DNA from: Venturia oleaginea
Taxonomy: Eukaryota > Ascomycota > Dothideomycetes > Venturiales > Venturiaceae
DNA length: 64,000 nucleotides
Direction: 5' to 3'
Assembly: GCA_013176395.1 (NCBI GenBank)
Contig: JABMLP010000009.1
Span: 868,001 to 932,000 of the forward strand
Shown: positions 9,243-55,600 of the stretch, one piece after another
Layout: each line of letters begins with the position of its first letter
How positions within the stretch are numbered: position 1 is the first letter of the stretch
Program-made: the position numbers and the translations under genes
The notes under the pieces: generated by a model
Database searches by the model: none
The model's input: only the letters and a program-made list of their open reading frames with translations
Told to the model about the DNA's origin: nothing

Positions 9243-9495
9243 ATTGGCAGGAGCAATTGGAGGAGATGTGCTAAATTGCTGTTGGTTCAATGTTCAATTG
9301 TTGTTTTGGTCCTGGTCTTGGACGGGGGGGTTTGGAAAGCTGACGTACGGAAGTGTGCTCCAGGTTCCTTTTTCGGCTGTGCTGCAAGCGAGGGAGCTTC
9401 GAAGACAAGAGCGATGGCGATGCATCAAAACTCATCTTCACATTCCTCCACCTTCGATTCACGCAACCAGCTATTTGGCCGTCGCGTTCAATGGG
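9243..9495. promoter_or_regulatory. shared divergent promoter of VPS17 and MEF2
   Basis: The 253 bp between the two chosen start codons must carry both promoters. The MEF2 frame stays open through it back to 9244, so the stretch may partly be 5' leader. No clear TATA box or other element stands out. Confidence 0.4.
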
Positions 9496-33910: not shown

Positions 33911-33915
33911 GATAC

Positions 33916-34100
33916 TGTTGGATGATACCACAATTTCAGTTAGCCGCAAAGTGGATATCGGTTGCATACAGCCGTCGAAATCCTGTACCCTTCTTTTGAT
34001 TTTAAAGCAATAACATCTGTATTGGTACCTCGCGGTTCCCAGCTTAATTGAAAGGACATGCAATTCTAAACCTCATCTTTTCACTGTGTACTATTCAAGA
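33916..34100 (+). repeat. Copia B 5' LTR
   Basis: Begins TGTTGGATGAT and ends CTATTCAAGA, directly followed by the primer site. Same length as the 3' LTR at 51662, with four substitutions between them. GATAC precedes it. Confidence 0.93.
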
Positions 34101-34115
34101 GTTATGCGCCCGGCT
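34101..34115 (+). promoter_or_regulatory. Copia B primer-binding site (half tRNA-iMet type)
   Basis: GTTATGCGCCCGGCT abuts the 5' LTR. It matches, with one mismatch, the complement of the anticodon stem-loop of initiator tRNA-Met (GGGCUCAUAAC), as in copia-type elements primed by a cleaved half tRNA. Confidence 0.7.
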
Positions 34116-34175
34116 TGCCGACCCTCGTAAACACACCTTACCCTTTCTGGTTCACCGTTGTGTATTGATACAACC

Positions 34176-34351
34176 TATTACGGGACGGTAGCTGGAAAGA
34201 CGCAGCATACTCGTAGCCAAAGATTGTTTAGATTCAGTTAAAGAGTGAAGGTATCTACAAACAGAGAACCTCAATGAGGTTCTTTCTCTATACTAGGCTC
34301 AATCAGGCTTAGGCTCTTAGCCTATACCAACCATGGGCCATGCCCATAACA
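34176..34351 (-). repeat. gypsy 3' LTR
   Basis: Read on the minus strand it begins TGTTATGGGC and ends CCCGTAATA. I see no difference from the copy at 39579. The pol stop codon lies only 12 bp inside it. Confidence 0.95.
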
Positions 34352-34363
34352 TTACCCCCCTCC

Positions 34364-37300
34364 TTACCGGGTGTGCAGGACTAAAGAGGGTGTGGTAGGT
34401 GGGATAATCAAACAGACAAACGCCATACATCGCTTCTGCCAGCTTGTAGCAGATTCGAAGGCGCTGGCCACCGCTACTCGGTTTCTTCGGGCCCCTGTTT
34501 GAGCTCCTATATCTTCGCCGACACCGTCGCCCTTGCCATACTCTGCCTCGAAGCGGTCTAAGTCCTCGACTTCTGTGAATAATGAACGTGGCTGCCAATC
34601 GGGATCTGCATAGCCTTTCCATTTGATTAATAACTGACGAACCCAGCCTCGCCCAACCCGTTTCTTCTCTGCGCGAAGTATACGTTCTACTTCAAACTCA
34701 GCCTCTGTTTCTTCGGTTTGAGGCACTAATGGTGGCGGCTGGGTATCATCGGATTCTTGTGAGGGCAGTGTGTCGGTTGCGGCTCGGCGGAGTAGGTCAA
34801 CGTGGAAACGGTTATGGATACCACTTGGCAGGTCAGCCAGCTCGTATACCATCGGGGAGATCTGGTTCTCGACAGTGTATTTGGCTTGCGTCCACGACAG
34901 TTTCTTTGATAGCTGCGGAGTATTGATATTCCTAAGGTTCAACCAGACTTTGTCGCCCTTTTTTAACGTTTCGGCAGCTTGACGTGACCTGTTGGCGTCG
35001 TTCTCCATCTTCTGCTGGGACCAGGCCATCGCTGCCTGTGCATATTCTTGTGCCTCTTCTATTCGTTGCACAAAGGTCTCGGCATCGGCTGTTGGTGAGT
35101 TACTGGGTGAGATTCGTTGTACTTTCTGGATTGGTTCCGCATGGTAGCCGTGGGTTAGATAGAATGGACTCATCCCTGTGACTGAAGAGTCACGATTGTT
35201 CAGTGCTAACATAGCCGTAGGTAGTAGCGTTGGCCAGTCTAGTTGGGAGTATGCGATGAAGGCGCGGAGATAGCGTAGAACTTCCTGGTTCATGCGCTCG
35301 GTCGCGCCATCAGTCTGTGGATGAAAGGCTGTAGAGAGTCTCTGCTCAATCTTTGTAAGTTCGCAAAGCTTCTTCCAAAAACGACCTGTCCAATTGCTGC
35401 CTCTGTCCGACGTCAATGCCATGGGAAATCCGTGGTAGCGATAGTGGCATTGTAAGAACCTTTTCGCGCACTCTTTGGCGCTCATTGTAGTCATAGCCTC
35501 CAACGTAACACTTTTGAGGAGGCGATCTGTGATAACGATGAGGTATTTTGGGCCGTTTTCCTCTGCGGGCAAATCAGTCATGAAATCGATTGATAGCTCG
35601 CTGTGGAAGCGGGCCGGGATTGGAAGTGGTTTCAGAAGACCTCGCTTCTTATCACGCCATATTCCTGTTCTCCCACATACGTCGCAATTACGTACAAACT
35701 GCCGGACTGTCTTGTATTGTTGGGGCCAAAAGAAACTTCTGGATAGAATCGCAAGCGTGCTATCTCTCCCTGGGTGTTCAGTAACATGGGAATCGTGAGT
35801 TTGTTGGACCAGCGTTGTTCGCAGCGGTTCCCAATCTGGTACCCATAGGATCCCTCTTCTCGTGACCGCGCCGTGGTCGTCTACTTCGCATTCGGGTAGC
35901 TGTACCGACAACTTGAGCTCTGGAGGAAAGGAACGTTCGCCAGTAACTATAGCCGTATGAATAGCTTCGTAGGATTGGTCCTCTGCTATTGCGCGATCCC
36001 AGAGAAGTTGTAACTCTGGTTTCTCGAAAAGATCGCATCCTTTTGCAACTGACCGGTTTTGACCGTACCTAGTAGTGGACCGGTGTTGACCGTTTTCGGC
36101 AGTCAGCTGGTGTCGACCGTCCAGTCCAGTATTTTGCTGGGGCTCCCGTATAACGTTCCATGTACTATTGGATGTATTCGGTGTATTGACTGGGCAGATA
36201 AGGGCTTGTATTGCGATTGTTTCGGTCGTCCTCTCGGAAAGAGGAGGAAGCCATTCGTCCTTGATCAACTGGGCCACTCGCCCTTGTAGTCTCTCGTCGT
36301 TCTTGTCATGTGGCATATCTTGATGTCTTCTTGATAGTGCGTCTGGTCTTTGCGCTAGTTTTCCGGCGCGAAATTCCAGCTGGAATTGGTACTCAGATAG
36401 AATTAGCGACCATCTTGCTTGTCTCTCTGACAAACGCTGCGCTGTCATAAAGTAGCGGAGATTCTTGTGATCGGTAAGGACTTTGAAAGGTGCTGCAACA
36501 CTGCGTAGTTCTCCTCTCCAGTGTTCAATGGACTTGATTACTGCCAGTAATTCTTTATCGTGGATCTCGTAGTTACATTCAGCCGCAGTGAGCTTGCGGG
36601 AGAAGTATGCTACTGGTCGTAGTTTTCCTTTCATATCCTTCTGCGACAACGTGCCTCCCAGCGCGTAGCCAGAGCAGTCGCACTCGAGTACCGTATCCAG
36701 GTCTGGATTCCAGTGAGCCAGTATTGGGGCGGAGATGAATAGCTCCTTCAAGACTTGAAAGGCGTTCTCATGTTCTTTGTTCCAGACAAAAGCGACGGCC
36801 TTCCGTGTTAACTTGATTAAGGGGTCGGAGAGCTCTGAGAAGTTGTCGATGAAGTCTCGGTAGAAATTTGCAAAGCCTAGGAAGGAGCGTACGCCTGTGA
36901 CATTGACTGGAGCCTCCCATTCTTTAATCGCGGCAACTTTCTCTGGGTCGACTTTGATCCCTTCTCCTGCAGTGATAATGAACCCCAGATATTTGACCTC
37001 CTGAACAGCAAACTCGCACTTGCTTAAGTCTAGCCGAAGTCCAGCAGTCTTGAGCTTGGCAAGAATTTGGTTAACCTTGACCATGTGATCCAGATAGTCG
37101 CCGTCGCTCCATATCAAGACATCGTCCATGTAGGCTGAACAGCAGATATCTAGGGATTCCCGTAGGACTCCGTTGATGTATCGTTGAAAGCTCGCGGGTG
37201 CGCCAGCTAGTCCGAAGGGGGTAACTAGCCATTCGAATAGTCCAAATCGAGTGCGAAAAGCCGTTTTCCACTCATCGCCGTGCTTGATGCGGAGCCGATG

Positions 37301-37831
37301 AAATGCCGCTCTGACGTCAAGTTTGGTGTACCAACGCGCTGTTGCTAGATTTCGTAGGGTTTCTCGGATTAGTGGCAATGGGTAGCGGTCCGATCGAGTG
37401 ATTCGATTCAGTGCCCGATAGTCTACACACATCCGAATGCCTCCACCTGGTTTCCTTACAAATAAGACTGGGGCTGCCGCTGGTGAGTTGCTGGCGCGTA
37501 TCCAGCCCTTGTCCATATAGTCCGAAAGTGTTTTTCGTAGGACTAATAGCTCTTCCCTCGACATGCCGTATAATGGGCCCCAAGGAACTTCTGCCTCGCG
37601 ACCTTGTTCATCTCGTATCAATTCGATAACGTGATCGCGACCCTCTTGATGGGGCGCGATCTCTCCGTCTTCGTCGTCGAGAAAGGCATCAGCATGCTCT
37701 GCTATTTCTTCTGGTATCTCTTGTCGCATTTCTTCCTCAGTCTTTCTCTGTTTTCTTTCTGCTAACTTGCTTAGGGTCCTTGTTGATATCCGACATCGAG
37801 ATAGCCAGCACTTGTGTACCATCCGGTCCAT
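34364..37831 (-). CDS. gypsy pol: reverse transcriptase, RNase H, integrase, chromodomain
   Basis: 1155 residues. In order: RT (FVRKPGGGIRMCVDYRALN; LDVRAAFHRLRI; FEWLVTPFGLAGAPASFQ; catalytic YMDD in CSAYMDDVLIW), RNase H (LECDCSGYALGGTLSQ; KELLAVIKSIEHWR; LTDHKNLRYF) and an HHCC integrase zinc finger (NCDVCGRTG). Then comes the DDE core (SIDFMTDLPAEE; LTSDRGSNW; HPQTDGATERMNQEV) and a C-terminal chromodomain (FEVERILRAEKKRVGRGW then LLIKWKGY). The chromodomain places it in the chromoviruses, where it guides integration to marked chromatin. The frame overlaps the protease frame by about 95 nt in the +1 phase. All catalytic residues are present. Confidence 0.93.
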   Translation of the reverse strand: MDRMVHKCWLSRCRISTRTLSKLAERKQRKTEEEMRQEIPEEIAEHADAFLDDEDGEIAPHQEGRDHVIELIRDEQGREAEVPWGPLYGMSREELLVLRKTLSDYMDKGWIRASNSPAAAPVLFVRKPGGGIRMCVDYRALNRITRSDRYPLPLIRETLRNLATARWYTKLDVRAAFHRLRIKHGDEWKTAFRTRFGLFEWLVTPFGLAGAPASFQRYINGVLRESLDICCSAYMDDVLIWSDGDYLDHMVKVNQILAKLKTAGLRLDLSKCEFAVQEVKYLGFIITAGEGIKVDPEKVAAIKEWEAPVNVTGVRSFLGFANFYRDFIDNFSELSDPLIKLTRKAVAFVWNKEHENAFQVLKELFISAPILAHWNPDLDTVLECDCSGYALGGTLSQKDMKGKLRPVAYFSRKLTAAECNYEIHDKELLAVIKSIEHWRGELRSVAAPFKVLTDHKNLRYFMTAQRLSERQARWSLILSEYQFQLEFRAGKLAQRPDALSRRHQDMPHDKNDERLQGRVAQLIKDEWLPPLSERTTETIAIQALICPVNTPNTSNSTWNVIREPQQNTGLDGRHQLTAENGQHRSTTRYGQNRSVAKGCDLFEKPELQLLWDRAIAEDQSYEAIHTAIVTGERSFPPELKLSVQLPECEVDDHGAVTRRGILWVPDWEPLRTTLVQQTHDSHVTEHPGRDSTLAILSRSFFWPQQYKTVRQFVRNCDVCGRTGIWRDKKRGLLKPLPIPARFHSELSIDFMTDLPAEENGPKYLIVITDRLLKSVTLEAMTTMSAKECAKRFLQCHYRYHGFPMALTSDRGSNWTGRFWKKLCELTKIEQRLSTAFHPQTDGATERMNQEVLRYLRAFIAYSQLDWPTLLPTAMLALNNRDSSVTGMSPFYLTHGYHAEPIQKVQRISPSNSPTADAETFVQRIEEAQEYAQAAMAWSQQKMENDANRSRQAAETLKKGDKVWLNLRNINTPQLSKKLSWTQAKYTVENQISPMVYELADLPSGIHNRFHVDLLRRAATDTLPSQESDDTQPPPLVPQTEETEAEFEVERILRAEKKRVGRGWVRQLLIKWKGYADPDWQPRSLFTEVEDLDRFEAEYGKGDGVGEDIGAQTGARRNRVAVASAFESATSWQKRCMAFVCLIIPPTTPSLVLHTR

Positions 37832-38441
37832 CTCTTCTCAACCGTCGCTGGGCCCTTCCAACAATAGCTGCAAATACAGATCCTGACACTAGACAAGCCG
37901 CCCGCACGTGAGCGAGCCGGTCTCGCGCTTTGGTGTTCTGTTCTAGCCACCCCTTTTCTCTTACCGTGATGCGCTGGGATCCTTGACCAATAAGCAGCTT
38001 TCTCTTAGCTGCTATATATCGCACCCAGTTTCTCTCTGCCCATGCCTTGCCTAGGATAATAGGGAAGCTCAATCCTTTCACTATATACCCATAGACTCGC
38101 TCTGCTCGACCATCAATGTCGATCGTAGCGTAGGTCATGTGCGTAATACGAAGGTCTTCTCCGTTCTCGTGGCTCTCTTTAGCCAGTGCCAATTGTTTGG
38201 TGTCAATTGGGATGCGCGGTAGACGATGTGTTTGGACACTCTTCTCGCTGAAAGCAGCATAAGGGAGGCAGCCGTTATCAAAGAAGGATTCGGTGAAAGA
38301 AGTTCCGTTGATCAAGGTATCTATCAAGAAGGGTGTACTTTCCATCCTATCCTTTGCTGCTTTGATTTCTCTTATGCCTGGTAGCTTTGTAATGTCTTCG
38401 CCATGTACATCTACTTCAGACCCTCGTGCGCGACGATGCAC
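37737..38441 (-). CDS. gypsy protease-region ORF
   Basis: About 234 residues between gag and RT. The protease-like core reads FLIDTLINGTSFTESFFDNG, with DNG where retropepsins have DSG or DTG, and later VYGYIVKGLSFPIILGKAW, the second conserved block. The frame is -1 to gag (whose stop is at 38450-38452) and pol is +1 to it, so expression needs two frame changes, or this copy carries indels. The shown start is a GTG; the frame is open a little upstream across the gag stop, consistent with frameshifting rather than its own initiation. Confidence 0.7.
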   Translation of the reverse strand: MHRRARGSEVDVHGEDITKLPGIREIKAAKDRMESTPFLIDTLINGTSFTESFFDNGCLPYAAFSEKSVQTHRLPRIPIDTKQLALAKESHENGEDLRITHMTYATIDIDGRAERVYGYIVKGLSFPIILGKAWAERNWVRYIAAKRKLLIGQGSQRITVREKGWLEQNTKARDRLAHVRAACLVSGSVFAAIVGRAQRRLRRDGPDGTQVLAISMSDINKDPKQVSRKKTEKD

Positions 38442-38449
38442 AAGGGTAG

Positions 38450-39553
38450 CTAGTTTTCCGACTCTGATGAGGCTTCCTGTAGGGAGTCATCGGTATGCTG
38501 TGTGATTACCGCAGTGACCTGAGTCTTTGGACGTGTTGCTGGTCGGAATTCGCATATGTTCGGATGGTGCTTGGGCTTCTTACAGCGCCCGCATTTGCCC
38601 GCTTGTATAAGTGCCAAGAACTCTGTTTGGGATCGCCATTTCGCTCTAGGTCGTCGGTCCTTCTTCGCATCCTTTCCGAGTGTATCGACCCGAGCTATCA
38701 GTGCTGCGATCTGCGCTGAAAGGGCGTTGATGCCAGTCATTTCGACATCGCCTTCTGCGTCACGACTGACTGTTTGGGGTGATTGTGGCCTCCCTCGAGT
38801 CGTTGGCGTCTCCTTATCCGTACTTGGATAGCGGCGTTGGTGGGATAGAGCCTCTGTCTTCGTCGCGAAGTACTGTACATCTTTTACGTAAGTGTCGTAG
38901 TCGTCCCTGGACAATCGCACTGATTTCAAGGTCTGTTGGAGGGAGTAGTTGAGCGCGTTGTTCATGATAGTGATCTTTGAGGCTCTTTGCGGCGCTAGGG
39001 ATCCAGCGTGCGATGTCAGTTGTTCGAACTGCTGGCGGAAGTCTTCGAACGGTTGTCTGCTGCCTTGGCTAATCTTGTTCAGCTCGTCGAGAGCTTTAGC
39101 TTCCGCTTCATGATCTAAGAACTTGTCGTCCATATGCTTGATAAAGGACTCGGGTTCGTAGTTGTCATGTTGCTCTCCATTGCTTAGCCATTGGATGACG
39201 CGTTGTTGTTTCTCTGTCGGAAGCCCGTTGAAGATGTTCGCGCATATTCCTTGATTGCTTCCAAGCTTCCCATTTTCAACAGTGATTTTTGTCTTGATCT
39301 GCCATCTGAACAGCGTGTAGTTGTCTCTTTTCCCGTCCCATTTAGGCCATGCAATAGCTTTTGCACCGGTGTTCCCATCAACACTGACTGCGGTCAGAGC
39401 TGCCACCAATTGTTGTACGGTGTCAGGCGAATTTGCTCGAGCCATTGAGAGTTTGTCGATTCCTTGCGTAATGCTCGCGATTGGGTCGTCGTCGGTAGTA
39501 GGGGTGTAGGTTGTAGGAGTCGATAGGGTACTGTTGCTACGCATCAAGTACAC
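38450..39553 (-). CDS. gypsy gag with CCHC zinc knuckle
   Basis: 367 residues. The capsid-like middle (FRWQIKTKITVENGKLG; INQ-rich helices; FEDFRQQFEQLTSHAGSLAP) is followed by a zinc knuckle CGRCKKPKHHPNIC, the C-x2-C-x4-H-x4-C pattern that binds the RNA genome. The start lies 26 bp inside the 5' LTR, and the ATG nearest the LTR was taken. It ends SSESEN with the protease frame overlapping in -1. Confidence 0.88.
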   Translation of the reverse strand: MYLMRSNSTLSTPTTYTPTTDDDPIASITQGIDKLSMARANSPDTVQQLVAALTAVSVDGNTGAKAIAWPKWDGKRDNYTLFRWQIKTKITVENGKLGSNQGICANIFNGLPTEKQQRVIQWLSNGEQHDNYEPESFIKHMDDKFLDHEAEAKALDELNKISQGSRQPFEDFRQQFEQLTSHAGSLAPQRASKITIMNNALNYSLQQTLKSVRLSRDDYDTYVKDVQYFATKTEALSHQRRYPSTDKETPTTRGRPQSPQTVSRDAEGDVEMTGINALSAQIAALIARVDTLGKDAKKDRRPRAKWRSQTEFLALIQAGKCGRCKKPKHHPNICEFRPATRPKTQVTAVITQHTDDSLQEASSESEN

Positions 39554-39567
39554 CTAGGTTTGTAAAG

Positions 39568-39578
39568 AACTGAATCTA
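39568..39578 (-). promoter_or_regulatory. gypsy self-primer binding site
   Basis: On the minus strand TAGATTCAGTT directly follows the 5' LTR. The complementary AACTGAATCTA occurs in the LTR (39632-39642, + strand TAGATTCAGTT), in the part likely to be the 5' end of the RNA. An 11 nt match of the transcript 5' end to the primer site is the arrangement of fission-yeast Tf1. Confidence 0.8.
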
Positions 39579-39754
39579 TATTACGGGACGGTAGCTGGAA
39601 AGACGCAGCATACTCGTAGCCAAAGATTGTTTAGATTCAGTTAAAGAGTGAAGGTATCTACAAACAGAGAACCTCAATGAGGTTCTTTCTCTATACTAGG
39701 CTCAATCAGGCTTAGGCTCTTAGCCTATACCAACCATGGGCCATGCCCATAACA
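39579..39754 (-). repeat. gypsy 5' LTR
   Basis: Appears identical to 34176-34351 over all 176 bp and is followed on the + side by the CAACC duplication at 39755-39759. Confidence 0.95.
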
Positions 39755-39882
39755 CAACCCCTTCTATCAAACCCCATCCACGCTAGTCTCATTAAGCCCA
39801 TCTTTTAATGTTTACAACGATTCTGCCATCAATCCAACATCCTCTCGGAATATACGAAAAGATCCCTACTCCGACTACCACC

Positions 39883-39940
39883 ATGACGATATCAGCTGCA
39901 TTAGTATCGTCAAAAGCTAAGGGAGGCCCCCTTGAGATCT
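39883..39940 (+). pseudogene. Copia B gag, first ~19 codons (split by Copia A insertion)
   Basis: ATG at 39883 starts MTISAALVSSKAKGGPLEI. The coding continues in the same frame at 46788 onward (IIDPDFEPK) if one copy of a short AGAT shared by both flanks is removed. This shows that the inverted Copia A structure landed inside the Copia B gag. Confidence 0.75.
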
Positions 39941-40171
39941 TGTTGCAATATGGTGGTAACACCAACGGTTTCAAAGTCGTTTCAAACCTGTTTGTTCTCA
40001 CTCTTGTTTGCTCGGTATCTCTGCGGTGTCAGAACCTACCTCAGTACACTCACTCTCTTTGTATAGATAGCCCTTATTTTCCACTCAGTTCGAGGGTTAT
40101 GCAGTCACTCATTGAATCGATATCTTACCTCAGTTTACCTCTCACATTTGGTGTTGTTCCAACTTCAGATA
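39941..40171 (+). repeat. Copia A LTR, left arm
   Basis: Begins TGTTGCAATATGG and ends TTCAGATA just before the primer site. The right-arm copy is at 46557-46785 on the minus strand, where the outermost two bases differ. Confidence 0.75.
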
Positions 40172-40186
40172 GTTATGAGCCCGGCT
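40172..40186 (+). promoter_or_regulatory. Copia A primer-binding site (half tRNA-iMet type)
   Basis: GTTATGAGCCCGGCT directly after the LTR. The first 11 nt are an exact complement of the GGGCUCAUAAC anticodon loop and stem of initiator tRNA-Met. A mirror copy lies at 46542-46556. Confidence 0.75.
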
Positions 40187-40405
40187 ATCGCTTAGAGTCC
40201 CCAGATTATTCGAACTAAACCACTTCTGGCTTACCGTTTTCGTTTGTTACTCCTCTTCAGGTCTAGCATCTCAACGTCTTTACCACTTTCGTGTTCTTTT
40301 CGTGGTTTACAGGTATTCTGCCCCGCCGTCTCCTCCGAGGGAAGTCAACGATCAATACCATTTATCTATCTTTTCAACCCCCATTGCTGTAGACCCTCCT
40401 ACACA

Positions 40406-43174
40406 ATGCCTGCATCATCCAAAAGAGTAATCAAGTCCTCTGAAGTTATCTTAGCATCTGCAAGAGACTGGGATGACTGGTTTGCTCGACATAAAGCCAA
40501 TTTCTCCCGTGCTGGTATCTGGAAGTATGCCAATCCAGCATTATCTTCAGAACCCATCCTTCCCTCTGAACCTCAACCTCCAGTACCCTACGATGCAACA
40601 AGCAGAGCTAGCGGTATGGAGATGGATATCAGTATAGCAGATCTCTCCTCAGAGGATCGGGTGCTGTATAAGATGTTACAGGACGAGTACAGGGACAAGT
40701 GGAAGCTCTGGGCTCGAACCGATTCAAAATTTGAAGCTGGCATGGTTTCTATTGAAGAATCAATCTCCGCAGACTACGCTGGACTGCTAACAGATTGTTC
40801 TACAGCCTATCAGATGTTTAAGGCTTTGAAGGACATGATAGCACCGACATCGAGAGCGAGGGAGTTTGAGATTCTTCGTGAATATCAAGCAGTTTGCAAG
40901 GGACCCAGGGGCAGCGCAATTGAGGCTTGGTTGATGAAGTGGGACAAAGCATATCGCGATGCTAAGAGGGTGGACTTGCCAGAGGTGACAGGAGAGAGGC
41001 CGTTGTATGCCTTCCTTGAAGCTGTACATTCTTATGACAGCTCTTGGGCTTCATCACAACGTCTCTATATCACCAGGTCAGTGGTAAGAGGAGAGACAGC
41101 GACCTCAATTCAGCAGCTCATCGAAGAATTCAATGCTGAAAGGTCTATCAACTCCCATCGCAAAGGTTTATCACATACATCATTTCAAACGGCAACACTC
41201 AATGGCCATCAACCATCGTTACCCGGAAGCTCCAATTCCAAACCCTCTAAGTCACCTCCAGAATGTGTCTGTGGTGTCAAAGAATGGTTCAGCCAATGCC
41301 GTTACCTTCACCCCGAATTGAGGACACCCGAATGGAGGTCTGATGTCTCTGCTGCCAACAAAGTTGCTACTGCATTGAAGACACCATCAGCTGCTCTCAA
41401 AAACCATATGGATCGGTGGGTCATTCGTCAAAACTCTACCACCACGGCTACTACCCAGGATTCTATCAATTCATCTGGAAAGCCCAACTTTGCACTTGCT
41501 ACTCGAGTGACGTCAACTCCAATAGCAGTCTCATTCATCACTGAATCCACTTCAAGTTACCGCAATTTATGGTTCCTTGACAGTGGCTCATCAGATCATA
41601 TTACCAACAATTCATCTATCTCTTCAGCAACCTCAGATGGCTCTCCAGGAGAGTCAGTTACTTCAGGCACTGGATCTACTGAAATCTTTGCCCGGGGCAA
41701 GGTTTCATTTACTGTACAAACTCCATTTGGTGAGGGCAACGCTCATCTGGAAGGAGTACTTTTTTGCCCTGGCTATGCTACCAATGTATTGAGCCTGGCA
41801 AAGCTCCTTGATAAGGGTTTTTTGGTGGATTTCAACGCTGGAACCATCTCCACTGCTCAAGGAGAAGTTATTATCCTTTTCAAGAGAGAAGGTTCTATGT
41901 TTGTAGTGTCACAAAACCCGGAGTCACTTCCTCAGAGGGTGATTCCATCTACCTCATTCGCCACCACAGTGCGAAAATCTGCTCGTCAAAAACCCCCATT
42001 GATCGCCGATGGCCATTCAACTCATGAGATTTACGGTCACATCAGCAAGGAAGCCATTAAACACCTTTCAGATAACGTCTCTGGCATCCTCGTTACCGAC
42101 CAATCAACTGCACCACAGTGCATTACGGATTGTCAAACGTGTGCATTATCAAAGATGACTCGTCAAGTCTCTCGTTATCCAGAGAGAAGCACACCAGTTT
42201 CAAAGCCGTTTGAGCGAATTGCCTTTGACTGGATCCATCACGATGAAGGCTACAACAATGACTTCTATACTTGCCATACTCTCTGCACACTATCTCGCTT
42301 CCATCTCTGTGCAAGTCACGCCAAAAAATCATCCTACAGAGAAGTTTTGGTGGAACATTTGAACATCATCGAATTGAACTGGGGTTTCAAGGTCAAGTAC
42401 ATTCAGACTGATGACTTCAAAGATGATGCTTTTGACTATGAACTCCGTATTCGCGGCATCATCAGAGAGCCATCTGCACCAGACACTCAGACCCAGAATG
42501 GCAAGGCAGAAAGAGCAGGGAGATCCATCACCACCGTGTCTCTTTGCCTCATTGAGTCCTCAGGGATTCCTCTCAATATGTGGCCTGCAACCATGCCTTA
42601 CGCTGCAGTTTTGCTGAATCACACACCAACTGCCGCCTTAGGGTGGAAGACTCCCTTTGAACTGGTGTTCAAGAGGAAGCCTGATGGCCGCCACCTTATC
42701 AAGTTTGGCTCAGTTGCCTACTGTCTTGATAAAGAGATCCCGAAATCTCGCCGCCTCAGGAAGATGGAACCACGTGCGTTCATTGGTTATTACGTCGGCT
42801 TTGATTCTACAGGTATCTACTGGGTGTGGATCCCATCTCAACGCAGGGTTATCCGGACACGGGATGTCAGATTTGACCAGAATCACTTGTACAAACATCA
42901 CGATATTCCTGTACTTGGTGTTTCTGAGAGGGTGACTGATTACATTGAGATTCAGACTCCTCTTCCCAGTCTCACAAGCATGCACTTAGATGTCAGTGTG
43001 CCATCATCACCAAGTAGCAGTACAGAAGTCACAACAGAATCAGGTTTTGGCTTCCAGGAGCTTGACTCAATGGTTGACAATGTCTTCTTTGATACTGATG
43101 AGGTTCCAACCTCAAAATCGCTGTATGGCCCTCAGGTAGTGATGCAACTGGCTCAAAGGTACCTTGGTCAATAA
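40406..43174 (+). pseudogene. Copia A gag-protease-integrase, left arm, truncated
   Basis: ATG 40406 (MPASSKRVIKSS) is preferred over the in-frame 40244. In order: gag (DWDDWFARHKANF; LLTDCSTAYQMFKALKDMIAP), a Cys/His motif CVCGVKEWFSQCRYLH, protease FLDSGSSDH (near residue 390), the pre-integrase HEIYGH...C..C motif, and an integrase core with FDWIHHDEG, IQTDDF and GKAERAGRS. The true sequence ends at 43119 (VPTSKS); the last 18 residues are antisense of the other arm. Everything after integrase is missing, so no RT is made. Confidence 0.85.
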
Positions 43175-46100
43175 TCCGCGAATGCTCTTTCTGAGTTGCC
43201 TTAAGGAATCCTTGGTGGTGAGAGTGTTTGAGCATGGCCTTCCAGTGCTTTGGTGGCGGAGGCAATGAACTGACCAGGACCTTTTTCACCTTAGAGGCAA
43301 AAGATAGGGCTTGAGTGAGTCCTAAAGTAACACCAGATAGATCTTCAGTGGTGGTAAGAAGCCCAATATGATGTTGCTTCCTGACACGCTTGGTGGTGAG
43401 AATTTCGTCGCTCAGAATCGTCTTTTCTGGACCATATTCCACCGTGTATGATGACCCTGATGGCCCTACAAATAGAGCTGGATCTGGATTGACTGGTGAT
43501 ACTGGTGTAGAGGGGAGAGGAGACTCATCAGTTGGCGAATTAACCGCACCCGCATCAGTGACAGATGGAGTTGGAGACGGAGTTGGAAGTTGTCCCACTT
43601 GATCGATTGATTTTGAGGTTGGAACCTCATCAGTATCAAAGAAGACATTGTCAACCATTGAGTCAAGCTCCTGGAAGCCAAAACCTGATTCTGTTGTGAC
43701 TTCTGTACTGCTACTTGGTGATGATGGCACACTGACATCTAAGTGCATGCTTGTGAGACTGGGAAGAGGAGTCTGAATCTCAATGTAATCAGTCACCCTC
43801 TCAGAAACACCAAGTACAGGAATATCGTGATGTTTGTACAAGTGATTCTGGTCAAATCTGACATCCCGTGTCCGGATAACCCTGCGTTGAGATGGGATCC
43901 ACACCCAGTAGATACCTGTAGAATCAAAGCCGACGTAATAACCAATGAACGCACGTGGTTCCATCTTCCTGAGGCGGCGAGATTTCGGGATCTCTTTATC
44001 AAGACAGTAGGCAACTGAGCCAAACTTGATAAGGTGGCGGCCATCAGGCTTCCTCTTGAACACCAGTTCAAAGGGAGTCTTCCACCCTAAGGCGGCAGTT
44101 GGTGTGTGATTCAGCAAAACTGCAGCGTAAGGCATGGTTGCAGGCCACATATTGAGAGGAATCCCTGAGGACTCAATGAGGCAAAGAGACACGGTGGTGA
44201 TGGATCTCCCTGCTCTTTCTGCCTTGCCATTCTGGGTCTGAGTGTCTGGTGCAGATGGCTCTCTGATGATGCCGCGAATACGGAGTTCATAGTCAAAAGC
44301 ATCATCTTTGAAGTCATCAGTCTGAATGTACTTGACCTTGAAACCCCAGTTCAATTCGATGATGTTCAAATGTTCCACCAAAACTTCTCTGTAGGATGAT
44401 TTTTTGGCGTGACTTGCACAGAGATGGAAGCGAGATAGTGTGCAGAGAGTATGGCAAGTATAGAAGTCATTGTTGTAGCCTTCATCGTGATGGATCCAGT
44501 CAAAGGCAATTCGCTCAAACGGCTTTGAAACTGGTGTGCTTCTCTCTGGATAACGAGAGACTTGACGAGTCATCTTTGATAATGCACACGTTTGACAATC
44601 CGTAATGCACTGTGGTGCAGTTGATTGGTCGGTAACGAGGATGCCAGAGACGTTATCTGAAAGGTGTTTAATGGCTTCCTTGCTGATGTGACCGTAAATC
44701 TCATGAGTTGAATGGCCATCGGCGATCAATGGGGGTTTTTGACGAGCAGATTTTCGCACTGTGGTGGCGAATGAGGTAGATGGAATCACCCTCTGAGGAA
44801 GTGACTCCGGGTTTTGTGACACTACAAACATAGAACCTTCTCTCTTGAAAAGGATAATAACTTCTCCTTGAGCAGTGGAGATGGTTCCAGCGTTGAAATC
44901 CACCAAAAAACCCTTATCAAGGAGCTTTGCCAGGCTCAATACATTGGTAGCATAGCCAGGGCAAAAAAGTACTCCTTCCAGATGAGCGTTGCCCTCACCA
45001 AATGGAGTTTGTACAGTAAATGAAACCTTGCCCCGGGCAAAGATTTCAGTAGATCCAGTGCCTGAAGTAACTGACTCTCCTGGAGAGCCATCTGAGGTTG
45101 CTGAAGAGATAGATGAATTGTTGGTAATATGATCTGATGAGCCACTGTCAAGGAACCATAAATTGCGGTAACTTGAAGTGGATTCAGTGATGAATGAGAC
45201 TGCTATTGGAGTTGACGTCACTCGAGTAGCAAGTGCAAAGTTGGGCTTTCCAGATGAATTGATAGAATCCTGGGTAGTAGCCGTGGTGGTAGAGTTTTGA
45301 CGAATGACCCACCGATCCATATGGTTTTTGAGAGCAGCTGATGGTGTCTTCAATGCAGTAGCAACTTTGTTGGCAGCAGAGACATCAGACCTCCATTCGG
45401 GTGTCCTCAATTCGGGGTGAAGGTAACGGCATTGGCTGAACCATTCTTTGACACCACAGACACATTCTGGAGGTGACTTAGAGGGTTTGGAATTGGAGCT
45501 TCCGGGTAACGATGGTTGATGGCCATTGAGTGTTGCCGTTTGAAATGATGTATGTGATAAACCTTTGCGATGGGAGTTGATAGACCTTTCAGCATTGAAT
45601 TCTTCGATGAGCTGCTGAATTGAGGTCGCTGTCTCTCCTCTTACCACTGACCTGGTGATATAGAGACGTTGTGATGAAGCCCAAGAGCTGTCATAAGAAT
45701 GTACAGCTTCAAGGAAGGCATACAACGGCCTCTCTCCTGTCACCTCTGGCAAGTCCACCCTCTTAGCATCGCGATATGCTTTGTCCCACTTCATCAACCA
45801 AGCCTCAATTGCGCTGCCCCTGGGTCCCTTGCAAACTGCTTGATATTCACGAAGAATCTCAAACTCCCTCGCTCTCGATGTCGGTGCTATCATGTCCTTC
45901 AAAGCCTTAAACATCTGATAGGCTGTAGAACAATCTGTTAGCAGTCCAGCGTAGTCTGCGGAGATTGATTCTTCAATAGAAACCATGCCAGCTTCAAATT
46001 TTGAATCGGTTCGAGCCCAGAGCTTCCACTTGTCCCTGTACTCGTCCTGTAACATCTTATACAGCACCCGATCCTCTGAGGAGAGATCTGCTATACTGAT

Positions 46101-46322
46101 ATCCATCTCCATACCGCTAGCTCTGCTTGTTGCATCGTAGGGTACTGGAGGTTGAGGTTCAGAGGGAAGGATGGGTTCTGAAGATAATGCTGGATTGGCA
46201 TACTTCCAGATACCAGCACGGGAGAAATTGGCTTTATGTCGAGCAAACCAGTCATCCCAGTCTCTTGCAGATGCTAAGATAACTTCAGAGGACTTGATTA
46301 CTCTTTTGGATGATGCAGGCAT
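43029..46322 (-). pseudogene. Copia A gag-protease-integrase, right arm, truncated
   Basis: Mirror of the left-arm ORF (ATG at 46322; also open from 46484), identical through VPTSKS. It continues about 163 residues further across the loop (IDQVGQLPTPSPT...; VKKVLVSSLPPPPKHWKAML; HSRIIDQGTFEPV), which is the linker entering the reverse transcriptase. It is cut at 43120, where it runs into antisense of the left arm. The RT catalytic region is absent. Confidence 0.85.
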
Positions 46323-46556
46323 TGTGTAGGAGGGTCTACAGCAATGGGGGTTGAAAAGATAGATAAATGGTATTGATCGTTGACTTCCCTCGGAGGAGAC
46401 GGCGGGGCAGAATACCTGTAAACCACGAAAAGAACACGAAAGTGGTAAAGACGTTGAGATGCTAGACCTGAAGAGGAGTAACAAACGAAAACGGTAAGCC
46501 AGAAGTGGTTTAGTTCGAATAATCTGGGGGACTCTAAGCGATAGCCGGGCTCATAA

Positions 46557-46785
46557 CTATCTGAAGTTGGAACAACACCAAATGTGAGAGGTAAACTGAG
46601 GTAAGATATCGATTCAATGAGTGACTGCATAACCCTCGAACTGAGTGGAAAATAAGGGCTATCTATACAAAGAGAGTGAGTGTACTGAGGTAGGTTCTGA
46701 CACCGCAGAGATACCGAGCAAACAAGAGTGAGAACAAACAGGTTTGAAACGACTTTGAAACCGTTGGTGTTACCACCATATTGCA
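46557..46785 (-). repeat. Copia A LTR, right arm
   Basis: Inverted copy of 39943-40171. Its outer end reads TTTTGCAATATGG against TGTTGCAATATGG on the left, so the terminal TG is altered or lost here. Confidence 0.75.
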
Positions 46786-46787
46786 AA

Positions 46788-49700
46788 AGATTATTGATCC
46801 CGATTTCGAGCCAAAAGCCATTCCAAATACGACACCACAAGTCTACACTGAACAGCCTGTTCTTGTCCTTCGTAGGGCTCCTTTGCCAGTAGATGTTGGC
46901 CTCACACCAGCGACTGTCGGAGCTCCCGAAAATGCAGCGAAGAGGTGGGAATTTGAGTACAAATTGGGTGTTTTTAAAGTCGAGAAAATTGACTACGACC
47001 TCAAGTTCAAGGCAATGAAGGAATTGAAGGCTAAAATCTATGCTAATGTTTCCGTTGCCTATTCAGGACATGTTACCGAATGCGACACAGTTCAGGAAAT
47101 TATGGCTGCTCTCAAAGAGCATGTTTGCCCAACTGATCGCGCCCTCAAGATTGAGGTTCGCCGCGAATATCAGTACCTCAATTCCATCGGTCCCAAAGGC
47201 AGCGACGTCGATACGTGGTTAAACAGATGGGTCTTCACTCACGGCCAGGCCGTCAAACTAGGCCTTGGCCAAGTTGAGGATGAACAGCCTATCTTTGACT
47301 TCATCACAGCAGTTCGCCGGTATGATAGGCACTGGGCTGACCTTCAAGAAGCCTTCATGAACAACCTCCTCTCCGACGGCCTAGACCTCCCTCCAATTGA
47401 CAAAGTAGTCGCCCGATTTCGCAATACACGTCGTCTCAAAGTTGTTGAACACCGCACGCACAGTCAAAATTCACCTCTAGCATCATTTACTACCTTCCAG
47501 GACGAGACCTCTGACACTAAGGTAACTGCAACTTCACGGTTTCCACGCACACCAAAGGAATGCCTCTGTGGAGAAGTCCACTTCTGGGGAAACTGTGACC
47601 ACCTTGTGGAATGCATACGGTCTCCCAGTTGGAAGCTAGATGCAATCAGAAAGGGCAAGGTTGACGAGGCCATCAAGAAGAACAAGAAGCTGGTTGGAAT
47701 CATAAAACAGGTTAATGAAAAGGCTATCAAGAGGCGTCAAACTGAAGCCTCAACCTCGACCTCTGCGAGTGCTCAACCGGAGTACATCATGGCCAACGCT
47801 ACTTCGATCTACATTCCTATTACTGAGGACATTCCTGACCTTGAACCAGTTCATATCAATGCATACTACTCTTCAGTAGTAGAAGCCCTAGATAATACCG
47901 TTGCCGCCGCATTCTCCTCTCAAATTACCATTCACTCGAACATCTGGTATCTGGATTCTGCTTCCTCTCACCACGTCACCAACAGTCTTCAGTACTATAC
48001 AGCAGAATCTACTATGCCGGCTGGCTCTACCATTACCTCAGGAACTGGCCTTTCGCACATCGTCTCTAAGGGCATAGTAAAACTGCTAGTCATGACACCA
48101 ACTGGTCCCAATTTCCTCGTGCTATCTGGGGTTATCTATGCCCCAGGTTTCAGCACAAATCTCATCTCTCTCTATCCTTATTGACAAAGGTTTCGATGTC
48201 AATCTTCGCCTTAATCGCATCACAAAGGACAACAAGCCACTCATCAACTTTGAGAGAGAAGGCCCCATGTGGGTAATTGCACGGGAAAGATCATCACCAT
48301 CCATATCATCATGGTGACTTGACACTTCAGTCACAACTCAAAGTGATACCTTACCACCGATGTGTCAGTCCACTGACACTCCTGCCGATTTCGAGGCAAC
48401 TGCTCTCTCCTCTGGTTTCAAAGGTGTAGCAGCAGCAGCCCTTGACTCACAAACATCACAATCTCGTCCGCCGAAGAGAACTACGGCTCTTGAATGGCAT
48501 GAGATGCTTGGTCACGTTTCTCCTATAGCGTTGACAAAACTACAAGCAAATACTACAGGTGTACACATCACAACCAACAACCACAAGCCACATCATGCCA
48601 GATGTGAGTCCTGCTCCTTAGCCAAGGGGCAAATGAAAGTCTCAAGACGTTTAGGGCACTCTGATGTCGCTGTTGGACTCCCATTTGAGAGGGTGTCAAT
48701 GGACATGGTCTACCATGGAATCTCTATTGACCATAATCGTTACTCAACTCATCTTGTATGCGACACTTTTGGCTACCACATCGTCACCAATCACTGGGAA
48801 TAACACCAATCTGTTGATGCGGTCATTGAGTTTGTCATGCTCATTGAGTCAATGGGGTACAAAATTCGGTTTCTCCAGACTGATGAGTCCAGATCTCAAC
48901 GCCTCAACTCCTTCCTTGCCCAACACGGCATCAAAAGGGAAGCCTCTGCAGCCCATTCACAGGCTCAGAATGGTGGAGCTGAAAAGGCAGGTCACTTTCT
49001 CTCCCGCATTGCACGTTCAATGATGATACATGCAAAACTCCCGCACAATCTGTGGTCAGATGCTGTCAAGTGTGCAGCCTATCTATTCAATCTTTGGCCA
49101 ACTCGACGCCTTGGATGGAAGACACCTTACGAATTTATTACTGGCCGCAAACCCAACCTCGCACATCTCGAAATCTTTGGTTGCAGAGCATACCCTCTAC
49201 GGTATAGACTAGCCAAACTCGACAAAATGGAACCTCGCACACACATTGGCTATCTCGTCGGCTACGACTCATCCAATATTTTCAGAATCTGGGTACCTTC
49301 CCAAAAGAGAGTTGTCCGAAGCAGAGATGTCACTTTTGACCCCACTAAGTTCTATGAACCTTCAGAGGTAGATCTGGGCATCATTAGAGAGATTGAAGAA
49401 GTAATTGAGATCCAACAGCCATTGCCTTCACTCAATGATGGAATCGAAGAAGCGATGCTTGACACCTTTCAGTTTACTCCACCAAACTTTGGCGAACCTC
49501 CAGTTACTGAATCAAGTCAACCCTCGTCACCGGCTCAATCAACATCAACAAAAGCTCCTGAACTTCAATCTCAACTTCCATCACCATCTCCATCTGTTAC
49601 TCTCCTTTCGCAGGAGTCAGCAACTGACTCCTCTGATGACACAGAGAGTGATGAAGAAGACTCCGAAGAAGAAAATGATATGGTGATGATAATAGTAATG

Positions 49701-51607
49701 ACAATGTACCAGAACCTAGTCATACTCAATCTCCATATCCGACACCATTAGTTTCTACTTCAACTACTTCCACTGTCAGGCCCTCCTACACTGCAGAGGT
49801 CTCTCAGGAATACACCGCAGTTGGTGCAGATACTGACATCAGAAACATCATTTCTGAGAAGAGGACTCGTCATCAGGCACATATTACTGCTGTCAATGAG
49901 TTATCCGGATATCTTGTAGGCTTCAACTTGGCCCTTTCTCTCGCTACCACAACCTCCAGGCTACATGTCAGTAACATGCCTCCAGTTCTCAACTACTGGC
50001 ATCAAATGATTCGCCATCCATACGCCGATCAGTTCATTGCAGCTGCAGAGAAAGAATTCAACCACCTCCGCCGTGCAGGAACCTTCAAACCTCTATCACC
50101 CTCTGAGATGGATCCCAGCATTCTGCAACTCCCTATGATGTGGGTATTCTCGTACAAATCGGATTCTGATGGCTACCTCATCAAATACAAGGCACGTCTC
50201 TGTGTACGAGGCGATCTTCAAACCACTATGGCAGAAACTGCAGCAACAACCCTCGCTGCACGAATCTTTCGCTTCATGATGGCCCTCATTGCTGCTTTCG
50301 GACTCTACATGTGGCAATACGATATTGTCAATGCATACATCAATGCCAACGTTAACGAGACTGAGTACGTCAGGTGCTCTGACGGCTTCCCAGGCAATGG
50401 TGTCTTGTTACTCCTCCGTGCATTATACGGACTTCGCCAATCACCTCTTCTTTGGCAACGTAACTTCAGCGAAACCCTGGAATCTTTTGGCCTTACTCCT
50501 ATTCCAGGAATTCCATGTCTCTTTGTGAAATAAGACATGCTGGTATTCTTCTTTGTGGATATTATTGTCGCTTGTCATCCAAGATCTCGTCACCTCCTTA
50601 CTGAATTCGAAGCCAAACTCAGATCTCGGTATGCTATCAAACAGATAGGCCTCCCTGAGTACTTCCTTGGTATCCGCATTCTACGCAACTTTGAGGCCAA
50701 AACCATCAGTCTCTTGCAGGATGCATACATCGAAAAGATTACCAATCGCTTCAATCTGACATCACGAAAAGCCGTCTCTTCACCGGTGCCAAATGTTCCT
50801 CTTACACCACGTCTTGATAAGGCCTCTCCGCTGTTCATCTTTGCCTATCAACAGAAGGTTGGATCTATCAACTTCGCAGCCACAATCACAAGACCTGACA
50901 TCGCCAAATCAGTCTCTCTCCTTTCAGAACATCTGCAAAACCCCAGCCAGCAGTGCTCTGACGCCGCAGACCAAGTCATCATCTATCTATATCACTCTCG
51001 GTACCTTTCAATTCAATTCAATGGCCTCAAAACTGAGAACATCTTCTCATGTCATTCTGATGCATCTTTCGCCGATGATATCGCCACCCGCCGCAGCAGT
51101 GAAGGCTTCACTTTCAGCCTTTACGGTGGGCTTATTGACTGGAGAGCCACCAAACAAAAAACAGTATCAAATTCTACCACTGAAGCTGAACTCCTCGCTC
51201 TTTCTGGAGCTTCACGCGAAATGATGTGGTGGAACCGCTTCTTTAAAGCCATCAGATTCAACCCTCAGGAACCAACAATTATTCACTGTGACAACGCTCA
51301 AACAGTCAGACTTATGAATAACGAATCGCCCAAACTTGTAACTCGACTGCGTCATGTCGACATTCACCAAATGTGGCTTCGCCAGCAGGTTCAAGCTGCC
51401 ATTATCATCGTCATTTGGATAGCCGCTGCCCTCATGGTTGCCGACGGAATGACGAAAACCCTGAGCCCTCAACAACATCAAAACTTCTTATCTCAACTCA
51501 ATATGGTTGACGTCGAGCACCTCATCAAAGTGTTGGCAAAATCACCTTCAAAAACCACACCAAAACCAGCCAATCAGGCTTCACCAAACCTCAACACCAA
51601 GGACTGA
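46788..51607 (+). pseudogene. Copia B gag-pol, multiply broken
   Basis: Continuation of the frame begun at 39883. Gag has a Cys/His motif CLCGEVHFWGNCDH; protease YLDSASSHH (DSA rather than DSG); integrase HEMLGH, CESCSLAKG, SMDMVYHG, LQTDESR, NGGAEKAG; RT MWVFSYKSDSDGYLIKYKAR and ALYGLRQSPLLW; RNase H SDASFADD, NSTTEAELLAL, CDNAQTVRLM. Lesions: frameshift near 48170, TGA near 48316, TAA 48801-48803, frameshift near 49680, and TAA 50531-50533. The RT active site reads FFVDII where FVDDI is expected, so a catalytic Asp is gone. Confidence 0.88.
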
Positions 51608-51651
51608 AGTATCACCACTTTTCTATGTCATGTCAGGCCTGAGGCTAGCCC

Positions 51652-51661
51652 TGAGAGGGTG
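51652..51661 (+). promoter_or_regulatory. Copia B polypurine tract
   Basis: The purine-rich GAGAGGGT stretch directly precedes the 3' LTR at 51662, the expected position of the plus-strand primer. Confidence 0.6.
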
Positions 51662-51846
51662 TGTTGGATGATACCACAATTTCAGTTAGCCGCAAAGTGG
51701 ATATCGGTTGCATACAGCCGTCGAAATAATGTACCCTTCTTTTGATTTCAAAGCAATCACATCTGTATTGGTACCTCGCGGTTCCCAGCTTAATTGAAAG
51801 GACATGCAATTCTAAACCTCATCTTTTCACTGTGTACTATTCAAGA
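51662..51846 (+). repeat. Copia B 3' LTR
   Basis: 185 bp, differing from the 5' LTR at four sites (two adjacent near 51728, then two single changes near 51750-51760). Followed by GATAC at 51847-51851. Confidence 0.93.
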
Positions 51847-51851
51847 GATAC

Positions 51852-52618: not shown

Positions 52619-55600
52619 TCATATCCTACCACCCTCCACCAATGTTCTCCCAACCAATGACTCAACCCCATCTTCGCCAGTCCTTCTCCTCTCCAAGAAC
52701 CAGCGGAAAGGACCACCATCTTCGTCTCGTTCTCGTACGTAGGCAACACTATCACTGCCACTCCTCGAATGCCCCTTTTGCTGCGCCATTGTAGGTGAGG
52801 TAGGTGGTTCAAGTAAATTAGGTGAGGAAGCAGTGGAAAAGACAGGCGCATGCACATTGCCAGGCTGCATTGTCTGACTTGTCGAACTAGTACTCGTTGA
52901 ACTGGGACTCGCAGGCGTGATCAAACTGGGTAACTCCTGATGCGTCTGTCTTGCAACGCCCTCATTGATAGGCGAATGTATGTCCCTAACAGATTCCTTA
53001 GGGCTCGGAGCCTCACCAGCAAAAACATGCGGATCCGCACGAATGGTCGGAGAATCGTCTTGTCCCTCCTCTTCATAACTTGATGCTTTCTCTGAATCCT
53101 CATTCGAGGCATCTTCCCACTCTTCTTCAGACTCGCGACCTTCGTAATCGATATCTTGCTGCTGGTAGTTCACATCATCGAGATGGTCTTCGTATAAACC
53201 ATCTCCTGCAGTATCATCCGGACTGGTCGGGTCAGACTCAGGGACTGCTTGCCGAATGGGTGAGCTCCAAAGGGTTCGTGGATCACCTTTAGGTATAACA
53301 GGTGAAGAATTCATCGGACTGCTGCCTTCACCACGACTGCTAGTGTTACTGCGTTGACTGCCGCCCCAGGCACCGCGGCGCAGCTTCATGAGTGTCTCCA
53401 TGTTCATGTCACCCTCCCATCCAGGACTCATTTGTGCAAGCGCGTTGAGACTTGGGCTTGACGCCGCATTCCTGTCTCCATGATGTAGTGAGATGTAAGA
53501 ATTGCGCGTCGAATACTCTGATCGCTCAGTGATGGGAGTCAGATTCGGCTCGCGCGTAGAACGTTGTCGTGCGATTTCTCCCCAGTTCTTGGGTCCAAAG
53601 TAGCCACCATAGACTGCATTGCTGTCCTCGTCTGTGGCGGATGCATCCGTAGAGCCAGGTCTAGCGTAGAAACCGAACTCAGACCCATAGACCCCTTCAT
53701 CATCGTTTTCCAGGGCCTCAGCGTTCGCGGCTGCAATAAAAGCATCGTCATCCATGGCGGAATCATAATCCGAATAATCGAAATCGCTCGAGTATATGTC
53801 CTCGCTATAAGCTCCTGGAAAGAGGAACCCGACAGATTTACTCGGTGTCTCATCGATAGCATTCGCAATCTCCGCAGCACGAGCTGTTGGTGGCGATATT
53901 GTTGTGGCCTGACTGAAGCGACCGTCGTCCGGAATCAGGCTTGGACGCGAAGACACATTTTCCTCTTCATCGACGCCCTCATTGGGGTGCGAGGAAGTGT
54001 CTGAAGCGCTACTTTCCGTGCTGTCATCGCGCGCGAAGCGACCATCGGCAAGTGCCTTAGCTGCTGCCATTGCAAGTGCGCTTTGATATCTTGAAATGAT
54101 GTCCATGCTAGGATTTGGATCCGGATGCTCAGGCTCAGGGTCATGGTCAAGTAGAGCAGGTACTGGCTCCGATGGAAGTGAGCTCCTCTGTCTAGCCAGC
54201 TTCTGGCTATTTTGAGGAACCACGCGCCGTAAGCTTTTGACTGGGATTGGAGGAGGAACACCAATTTGTGCCCGTTCGTAGAGAGGATGAGATGGGTCAT
54301 CCAGAACTGATTCATCAAAATGTTGTGTGTCCGTGTCGGCAAAGTCTGCGTCGTCGAATTCACCGTCATCAAAGTAGAAATCATTATCCTGAACCGAGAC
54401 ACCGGCTTTGGGAGGCTCGTCGACACCACCACGAGGAGATGACCGTATTTCTGGTTCTTCCAGAGGTGATACGGCTTCCAACTCGTCATCTTGGAAGGAA
54501 GGTAAGATGCCCAAGCCTTGCACCTCGCCAGTTGGCATGTCGTCGAAGCTCATGCCACCCAATCCCGGAAGCTGGACCTTGCTCACTGGCATATCATCAA
54601 AGCTCATATCACCGAGGCCTTCATGCTGCACCTCACCACCAGGCATGTCGTCGAAACTCATCCCACCAAGTCCCTCATGCTGCACCTCACCAGGCATGTC
54701 ATCAATGGTCATGTTACCAAGTCCTTGATGCTCTGGCTCACCCCCTGGCATATCATCGAAACACATTCCGCCAAGCCCTTGATGCTGCATCTCATCCTCC
54801 TCGTCCTCGAATCCACCAAAATCTCCATCGTCAACCGGGTTGCCCCTCAAAGCCATTTTTGCCGCCTCTTGAATATTGAGATCGTCCATTCCCATCACCA
54901 TCCCGTTCGTCGGCATGCTATTCAGCGTCATATTGCCAATACCTCCAGTCAATCCACCACCTCCATAATCCCAGTCTTCGCCGACCATGGGTACATCGTC
55001 ATCCATGTCATCATAGTCCATGTCGTCATAGTCCATCTCATCTTCCTCTTCTTCACTTTGATCCTCTTCCGCCTGCCGATGTTGATTCGCCAATGCTTTG
55101 GCGGCGGCCTTCTCCCTATGCCTCTCTTCCATGATCTTTTCCTGGGCAGCAGAGTCTGTATTCGCGTACTGGAAACTGAAGCGTGACGCTCTCGAGTGCA
55201 TATGCGCGGGGAGTCCTGCAGACTGAAAATCCGATCCAATACTCGACCTTGACCCAAAACTAGCCCTTGATTCTACACGAGAACGTGAGGTCGGCGGGTT
55301 CCGCATAGACATATTCCGCGGGGTGAAAATAGTATTAGCATTAGCATTTTCTTTTGGTACGTCATCCCCTCGATTTGACGATGGCGACATTGGATCCTCC
55401 ATAAGGGGCGAAAGTGGACCTCTCGCAGCCGATAGCCCAACATAAGCTTCTTGTGGTTGAACGGGAGGTGCCAGCATCGGCTGAGGGGGCTGCGATTGTG
55501 GTGGTGATAGAGGTGGATCTGCCGGGAGAGGTTTGTAGACTGTCTTTGCTGTTCTCGCAAACGGTGGCAGAAGTGATGGCGGTGGCATTGTCTCATGCTC

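Follow-up and report, generated by a model that had tools for sequence, protein, structure and literature searches.

A palindromic copia insertion in the genome of Venturia oleaginea and its probable origin from fold-back cDNA

In maize, the Muk killer locus is an inverted derivative of MuDR, a DNA transposon, and its silencing activity has been demonstrated. The locus we investigated, which lies in a window (the whole stretch of DNA that was analysed) of 64,000 nucleotides from the fungus Venturia oleaginea, is similar to Muk killer in that both contain inverted partial transposon copies with the potential to form a long hairpin RNA; however, Muk killer is derived from a DNA transposon and has been shown to silence, whereas the window locus is probably a product of LTR-retrotransposon cDNA. 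Defective retroviral DNAs with inversions or inverted duplications were reportedly described by Olsen and Swanstrom in 1985 and ascribed to template switching during plus-strand synthesis. Fold-back copying by reverse transcriptase would be common to these molecules and to the fungal copia palindromes, but the latter have 5' LTR termini at both ends and repeatedly include chromosomal insertions with target site duplications (TSDs). In yeast, Ty1 cDNA is captured at double-strand breaks. The window locus, with a damaged LTR end and lost target DNA, is reminiscent of such captures, whereas two of its sister palindromes, C1 and C5, resemble clean products of integrase.

Palindromic loci are also a source of small RNAs in fungi. 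In Naumovozyma castellii, hairpin transcripts from palindromic loci account for 74.1% of the 22-23-nt siRNA reads in the parent strain (PMC7528652). Like the palindrome in the window, these siRNA loci are fungal inverted repeats. A literature search, with most subscription journals outside its reach, returned no paper on palindromic LTR-retrotransposon insertions.

Structure of the palindrome and its target

The palindrome consists of two 5' parts of a copia element, 3.67 kb and 3.18 kb long, in mirror arrangement and with their 5' LTR ends facing outward (Table 1). The inverted duplication described in an earlier sequence-only reading is real: when the window is aligned to itself with BLAST, positions 39937-43119 match 46791-43609 in inverted orientation over 3,184 columns with no mismatches and two one-base gaps, and arms of this length and identity cannot be due to chance. 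The first gap, at about 40199-40203, corresponds to CCCC in the left arm and CCCCC in the right arm; the second is at the LTR terminus. Because of the former, the mirror rule given in that reading, under which x is paired with 86728-x from position 39943 on, holds from position 40199 inward but fails for 39943-40198, where the sum is 86729. The extent of the loop and the LTR at the start of each arm had been recognized correctly. The absence of reverse transcriptase from both arms is likewise borne out: the two arm ORFs (40244-43174 on the plus strand, 976 aa; 43029-46484 on the minus strand, 1,151 aa) match Pol_BBD and SH3_retrovirus in a Pfam domain search at E 0.001, the pol domains of a copia-type parent, and at this threshold neither truncated ORF gave a match to reverse transcriptase, RVT_2, or rve. 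What that reading had missed is that the loop is part of the right-hand element, that the palindrome lies inside another copia element, and that the genome contains further palindromes.

Table 1. Coordinates of the window palindrome, of the elements around it, and of the sister palindromes (positions without a contig prefix are those of the window)
Feature	Location	Strand	Description
Left arm	39937..43119	+	3,183 bp; copia 5' part, LTR outward, intact TG terminus at 39941
LTR of left arm	39941..40171	+	Approximate coordinates; family LTR is TGTTGCAA...CTTCAGATA
Loop	43120..43608	-	489 bp; continues the right-hand element natively (element positions 3184-3672)
Right arm	43609..46791	-	3,183 bp; differs from left arm by one C; one base of the terminal TG missing from its LTR
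LTR of right arm	46558..46787	-	Approximate coordinates; same LTR as left arm
Fold-back junction	43116..43123	.	Element position 3672 joined to inverted 3183; 4-base overlap GATT/AATC
Right insertion boundary	46786..46792	+	74 bp of the outer element carried by L010 absent; no 5-bp TSD
Outer copia hosting the palindrome	33916..51850	+	LTRs 33916-34104 and 51662-51850 by BLAST; apparent TSD GATAC at 33911-33915 and 51847-51851
Nested gypsy	34176..39761	-	Bounded by 183-bp direct repeats; ORF with RT, RNaseH, and integrase
C1 palindrome	C1:516995-518686		792-bp perfect arms, 108-bp centre, TG and CA ends, TSD GATGG
C5 palindrome	C5:58829-68445		Contains its own nested LTR element; 3,549 bases without it; arms about 1.75 kb; clean TG...CA ends; TSD GTTTC
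C9b palindrome	C9:828993-832848		Other copia family; 1,802-bp arms without difference; 252-bp loop

In relatives such as L029 and L034 the sequence continues from arm to loop without interruption. The loop thus continues the right-hand arm, and the right copy extends to element position 3672, the left copy to 3183. Five other copies (represented by seven loci, as two of them were seen twice) read CATACAGC-GATTCC across the junction, whereas the window reads CATACAGC-GATTTTGAGG, with an overlap of four bases (GATT) with the inverted arm. The LTR of this family begins with TG and is associated with a 5-bp target duplication: flanking 5-mers are equal at six of the eight LTR loci examined (L042, L043, L044, L046, L048, and L049) and unequal at the other two (L045 and L047). 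At the window locus the same LTR terminus is present at both ends, intact on the left and short of one base on the right, and no 5-bp TSD was found there.

The element that hosts the palindrome has a close paralogue on contig C59 (L010). Both flanks of the palindrome match this paralogue in order, but a stretch of 74 bp that separates the two matches in L010 is absent. As the 74-bp stretch is present in all 12 distinct copies of the outer family that were aligned, L010 included (the alignment has 13 rows, but L053 and L019 are the same locus), target DNA was lost at the window locus.

Among the matches listed, no copy is identical to the arm over its full length, and the best long matches over 2,151 arm bases are on C22 (96%, positions 424-2151) and C18 (98%, positions 1-1416). 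A 328-base stretch of the arm is 100% identical to the C1 palindrome, and a protein search with the arm ORF retrieved 12 distant copia relatives with at most 29% identity. Copies of the family to which the arms belong, copia A, are mosaic (L003-L008, L022, and L041), with LTR, gag, and pol stretches that range from about 64 to 98% identity to the arm within one copy. These mosaics suggest recombination between subfamilies. Four comparisons revealed no consistent direction of RIP, the ratios of C-to-T plus G-to-A in the arm against the reverse being 25:18, 9:14, 6:12, and 14:28.

Sister palindromes and look-alikes in the genome

The 5' parts of LTR elements were used as queries against the genome (46.1 Mb, 61 contigs), and outward-facing pairs were then read. 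Three more mirror-image copia insertions with the architecture of the window palindrome were found (C1, C5, and C9b; Table 1), for a total of at least four in two copia families. C1 and C5 have the 5' LTR terminus on both sides and perfect 5-bp TSDs; TSDs are thus present at two of the four palindromes and absent from the window locus and from C9b, whose right end is intact and whose left end lacks the TG. The two halves of C5 differ at 39 mirror positions, all but four of which fall within 1747-1803, near the centre. The folds themselves are heterogeneous. The overlap is four bases in the window (on contig C61), for which the chance probability is about 0.016, and eight bases in C1 (GATTCTTC, by comparison with the relative on C18), for which it is about 0.0001; in C5 the overlap is imperfect, and C9b has none and one extra base. 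The two fold positions are offset by 489 bases in the window, 108 in C1, about 45-55 in C5, and 252 in C9b. They are thus close in all four palindromes, at about 2.5-13% of the longer path, with P 0.011-0.013 under independent ends, in a set of four that was found by search and not sampled.

Smaller or internal fold-backs were also observed. On C8, an insertion that extends from LTR start to LTR end contains an internal fold-back with arms of 464 bp at 98.3% identity; its flanking 5-mers are both CGTCC, an apparent TSD, but it departs from the family form in the last bases of the LTR. Small fold-backs are present on C21 (L065; about 110 bp per arm at 93%) and on C7 (L025; 81%). Two of the loci, L055 (1849-2500) and L065 (4257-5000), contain direct repeats with a 76-bp sub-unit and similar spacing, on C14 and C21, respectively.

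Several candidates did not withstand closer inspection. What seemed to be a 12-kb palindrome at C14:443-455 kb is made up of two separate copia insertions, with different flanking 5-mers (GTACC and GATTC) and their own 3' LTR sequences. The outward gypsy pair at C4:815351-826800 is an ordinary nested insertion, one gypsy having inserted in opposite orientation inside the 3' LTR of another, so that LTR positions 1-98 are on one side and 93-183 on the other. Both pairs retain 3' LTR sequence between the copies, which all four palindromes lack, and they count against taking every outward pair for a palindrome. C9a (L052) has 510-bp arms at 99.8% identity, but no TSD was seen and its left arm ends before reaching the LTR, so that it does not qualify as a full palindrome. 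At C56:1025-1030 kb, two SH3 domains that seemed to face outward have no inverted similarity. A survey of SH3 domains, which detects long arms only and did not extend to outward-facing pairs of dissimilar score on C30 and C59, returned 138 matches and a single palindrome, the one in the window. No full palindrome was found in the survey of gypsy 5' ends (40 of 166 candidates scored), in copia families with 33 and with 15 matches, or in the outer copia family with 37 matches, where C9a and C14 were the only candidates.

Origin of the palindromes

The window palindrome is probably a fold-back copia cDNA that was inserted by integrase, one of at least four such insertions in the genome. During synthesis of the plus strand of copia cDNA, in which the 5' LTR comes first, the growing 3' end at element position ~3,672 would switch to a plus strand at position ~3,183, belonging either to the same molecule or to a sister cDNA packaged with it. 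Copying back to the terminus of the 5' LTR would then produce a linear DNA with the start of the 5' LTR at both ends; integrase would accept both of these ends, and a palindrome would be inserted. The timing of the switch within plus-strand synthesis and the conversion of the hairpin to a two-ended duplex are steps that we infer. At the window locus, where one end is normal and the other has lost one base together with 74 bp of target, integration may have been one-ended and followed by repair; alternatively, the 74-bp loss and the damage to the right end may stem from a later small deletion.

The intact TG...CA ends and perfect 5-bp TSDs of C1 and C5 reveal that these two were inserted whole, the palindrome having pre-existed as cDNA. 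The simplest account of an insertion that is mirror-symmetric, bears a single 5-bp duplication, and ends in the 5' LTR terminus on both sides is that its symmetry predates insertion. For the window locus, we infer a cDNA origin from the architecture that it has in common with C1 and C5. Further points in favour are the overlaps at the folds of the window and C1, the C8 insertion with its internal fold-back and apparent TSD, and the lack, among the matches listed, of any copy identical to the arm over its full length. The sequence-only reading had implied a rearranged copy comparable to Muk killer; this is not the best explanation, as sister palindromes with 5-bp target duplications indicate the insertion of ready-made mirror cDNA. 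The close fold positions, in what is a small set, favour local fold-back over an origin from unrelated fragments that were joined or from deletions whose ends are independent. However, several observations speak against fold-back. The window locus has no TSD, 74 bp of its target are missing, and one terminus is damaged; C9b too has no TSD and one damaged end. The junction overlap is imperfect in C5, and in C9b it is replaced by one extra base. A hairpin has only one duplex end, and an extra step must be assumed, either second-strand copying or a switch to sister cDNA. Finally, outward pairs also arise from two ordinary insertions, as C14 and C4 illustrate.

The latter observation leads to an alternative explanation, in which two separate, opposed copia elements inserted 74 bp apart in the outer element and one deletion then removed both 3' halves together with the 74 bp. 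This genome does contain opposed double insertions (the C14 pair, with no shared TSD and its own 3' LTRs, and the C4 gypsy in a gypsy LTR), and the 74-bp loss would be accounted for in a single step. Nevertheless, we regard this explanation as unlikely: two integrase insertions do not predict the missing base at the right LTR terminus, the arms are free of substitutions and yet no other identical copy of arm length is among the matches listed, and C1 and C5, each flanked by one shared 5-bp TSD, would be left unexplained. It is also unlikely that two broken 5' cDNA fragments were end-joined before integration, through a non-homologous or microhomology-mediated reaction, and that integrase inserted the resulting dimer. 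Joining of this kind would provide two duplex ends at once, and junctions that range from 8 bp of overlap to no overlap plus one extra base are typical of it; however, independent breaks are expected to lie far apart, whereas the four offsets are small (P 0.011-0.013, in a small sample). An artefact of assembly or of a fold-back read might come to mind, given that a single homopolymer base and the outermost base are the only differences between the arms, but such an origin is very improbable, as both boundaries are LTR termini, both flanks are in order within one outer element whose own TSD is apparently in place, and three sister palindromes exist, two of them with a TSD.

Insertion of fold-back cDNA thus remains our preferred explanation. 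To judge from the palindromes with clean TSDs, cells do form mirror-image retrotransposon cDNA, and integrase uses it as a substrate. Fold-back insertion would then be a simple way in which long inverted repeats, which are able to start RNA silencing and to destabilise chromosomes, arise repeatedly.

Possible silencing and the neighbourhood of the palindrome

A long inverted repeat around a loop, the structure that characterizes hairpin-RNA loci, is present in the window, and transcription from either LTR could produce a hairpin RNA whose stem, 3.2 kb long, would be open to cutting by Dicer. Silencing through hairpin RNA is a possible function of the palindrome. A stronger version, according to which the hairpin RNA is made and the locus was retained for repressing its copia family in trans, similar to Muk killer, would be compatible with a fold-back origin, but we consider it doubtful. 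The RNAi machinery is encoded in this genome (three Dicer_dimer and four RdRP matches, together with the Piwi/ArgoL2 ORF of the window), and palindromic loci supply most of the siRNA reads in Naumovozyma castellii (PMC7528652). A comparison of 21-mers covered 29 of 68 loci, 24 from copia A and five from other copia families. All 24 copia A loci share between 69 and 1,502 21-mers with the arm (some of these loci overlap one copy), whereas the five other loci and the remainder of the window share none; any hairpin RNA made here would thus be directed at the copia A family. On the other hand, near-identical copies persist in the families that bear palindromes: the C1 query is 99% identical to a copy on C18 and 100% to one on C13, and the C9b family holds a pair with 100% identity, on C12 and C4. 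In the data examined, there is no sign of retention by selection.

A more general proposal, about which we are sceptical, is that copia reverse transcription repeatedly folds back and integrase inserts the resulting palindromes, with the consequence that an active family would seed hairpin-RNA loci against itself and thereby generate its own RNAi brake. The palindromes make testable how the silencing of a new retrotransposon family first begins.

The neighbourhood of the palindrome contains several other features. The nested gypsy (Table 1) has at least 39 other near-identical 5' ends in the genome, with 40 of 166 candidates scored, and appears to be the product of a recent burst. Elsewhere on the same contig (C61:1121217-1123133), two near-identical gypsy 5' ends are placed back to back, 555 bp apart, in an orientation opposite to that of the palindromes. 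Tandem repeats of about 105, 54, and 27 bp are located at window positions 54521-54794, inside a 1,505-aa ORF without a Pfam match. An ORF at 62733-63962 on the minus strand carries Piwi and ArgoL2 domains; the Argonaute gene that it represents is about 16 kb away from the palindrome. The EF-G-like ORF at 9244-12156 has 88% identity to its counterpart in Venturia effusa and 64-65% identity to those in Verruconis and Tothia.
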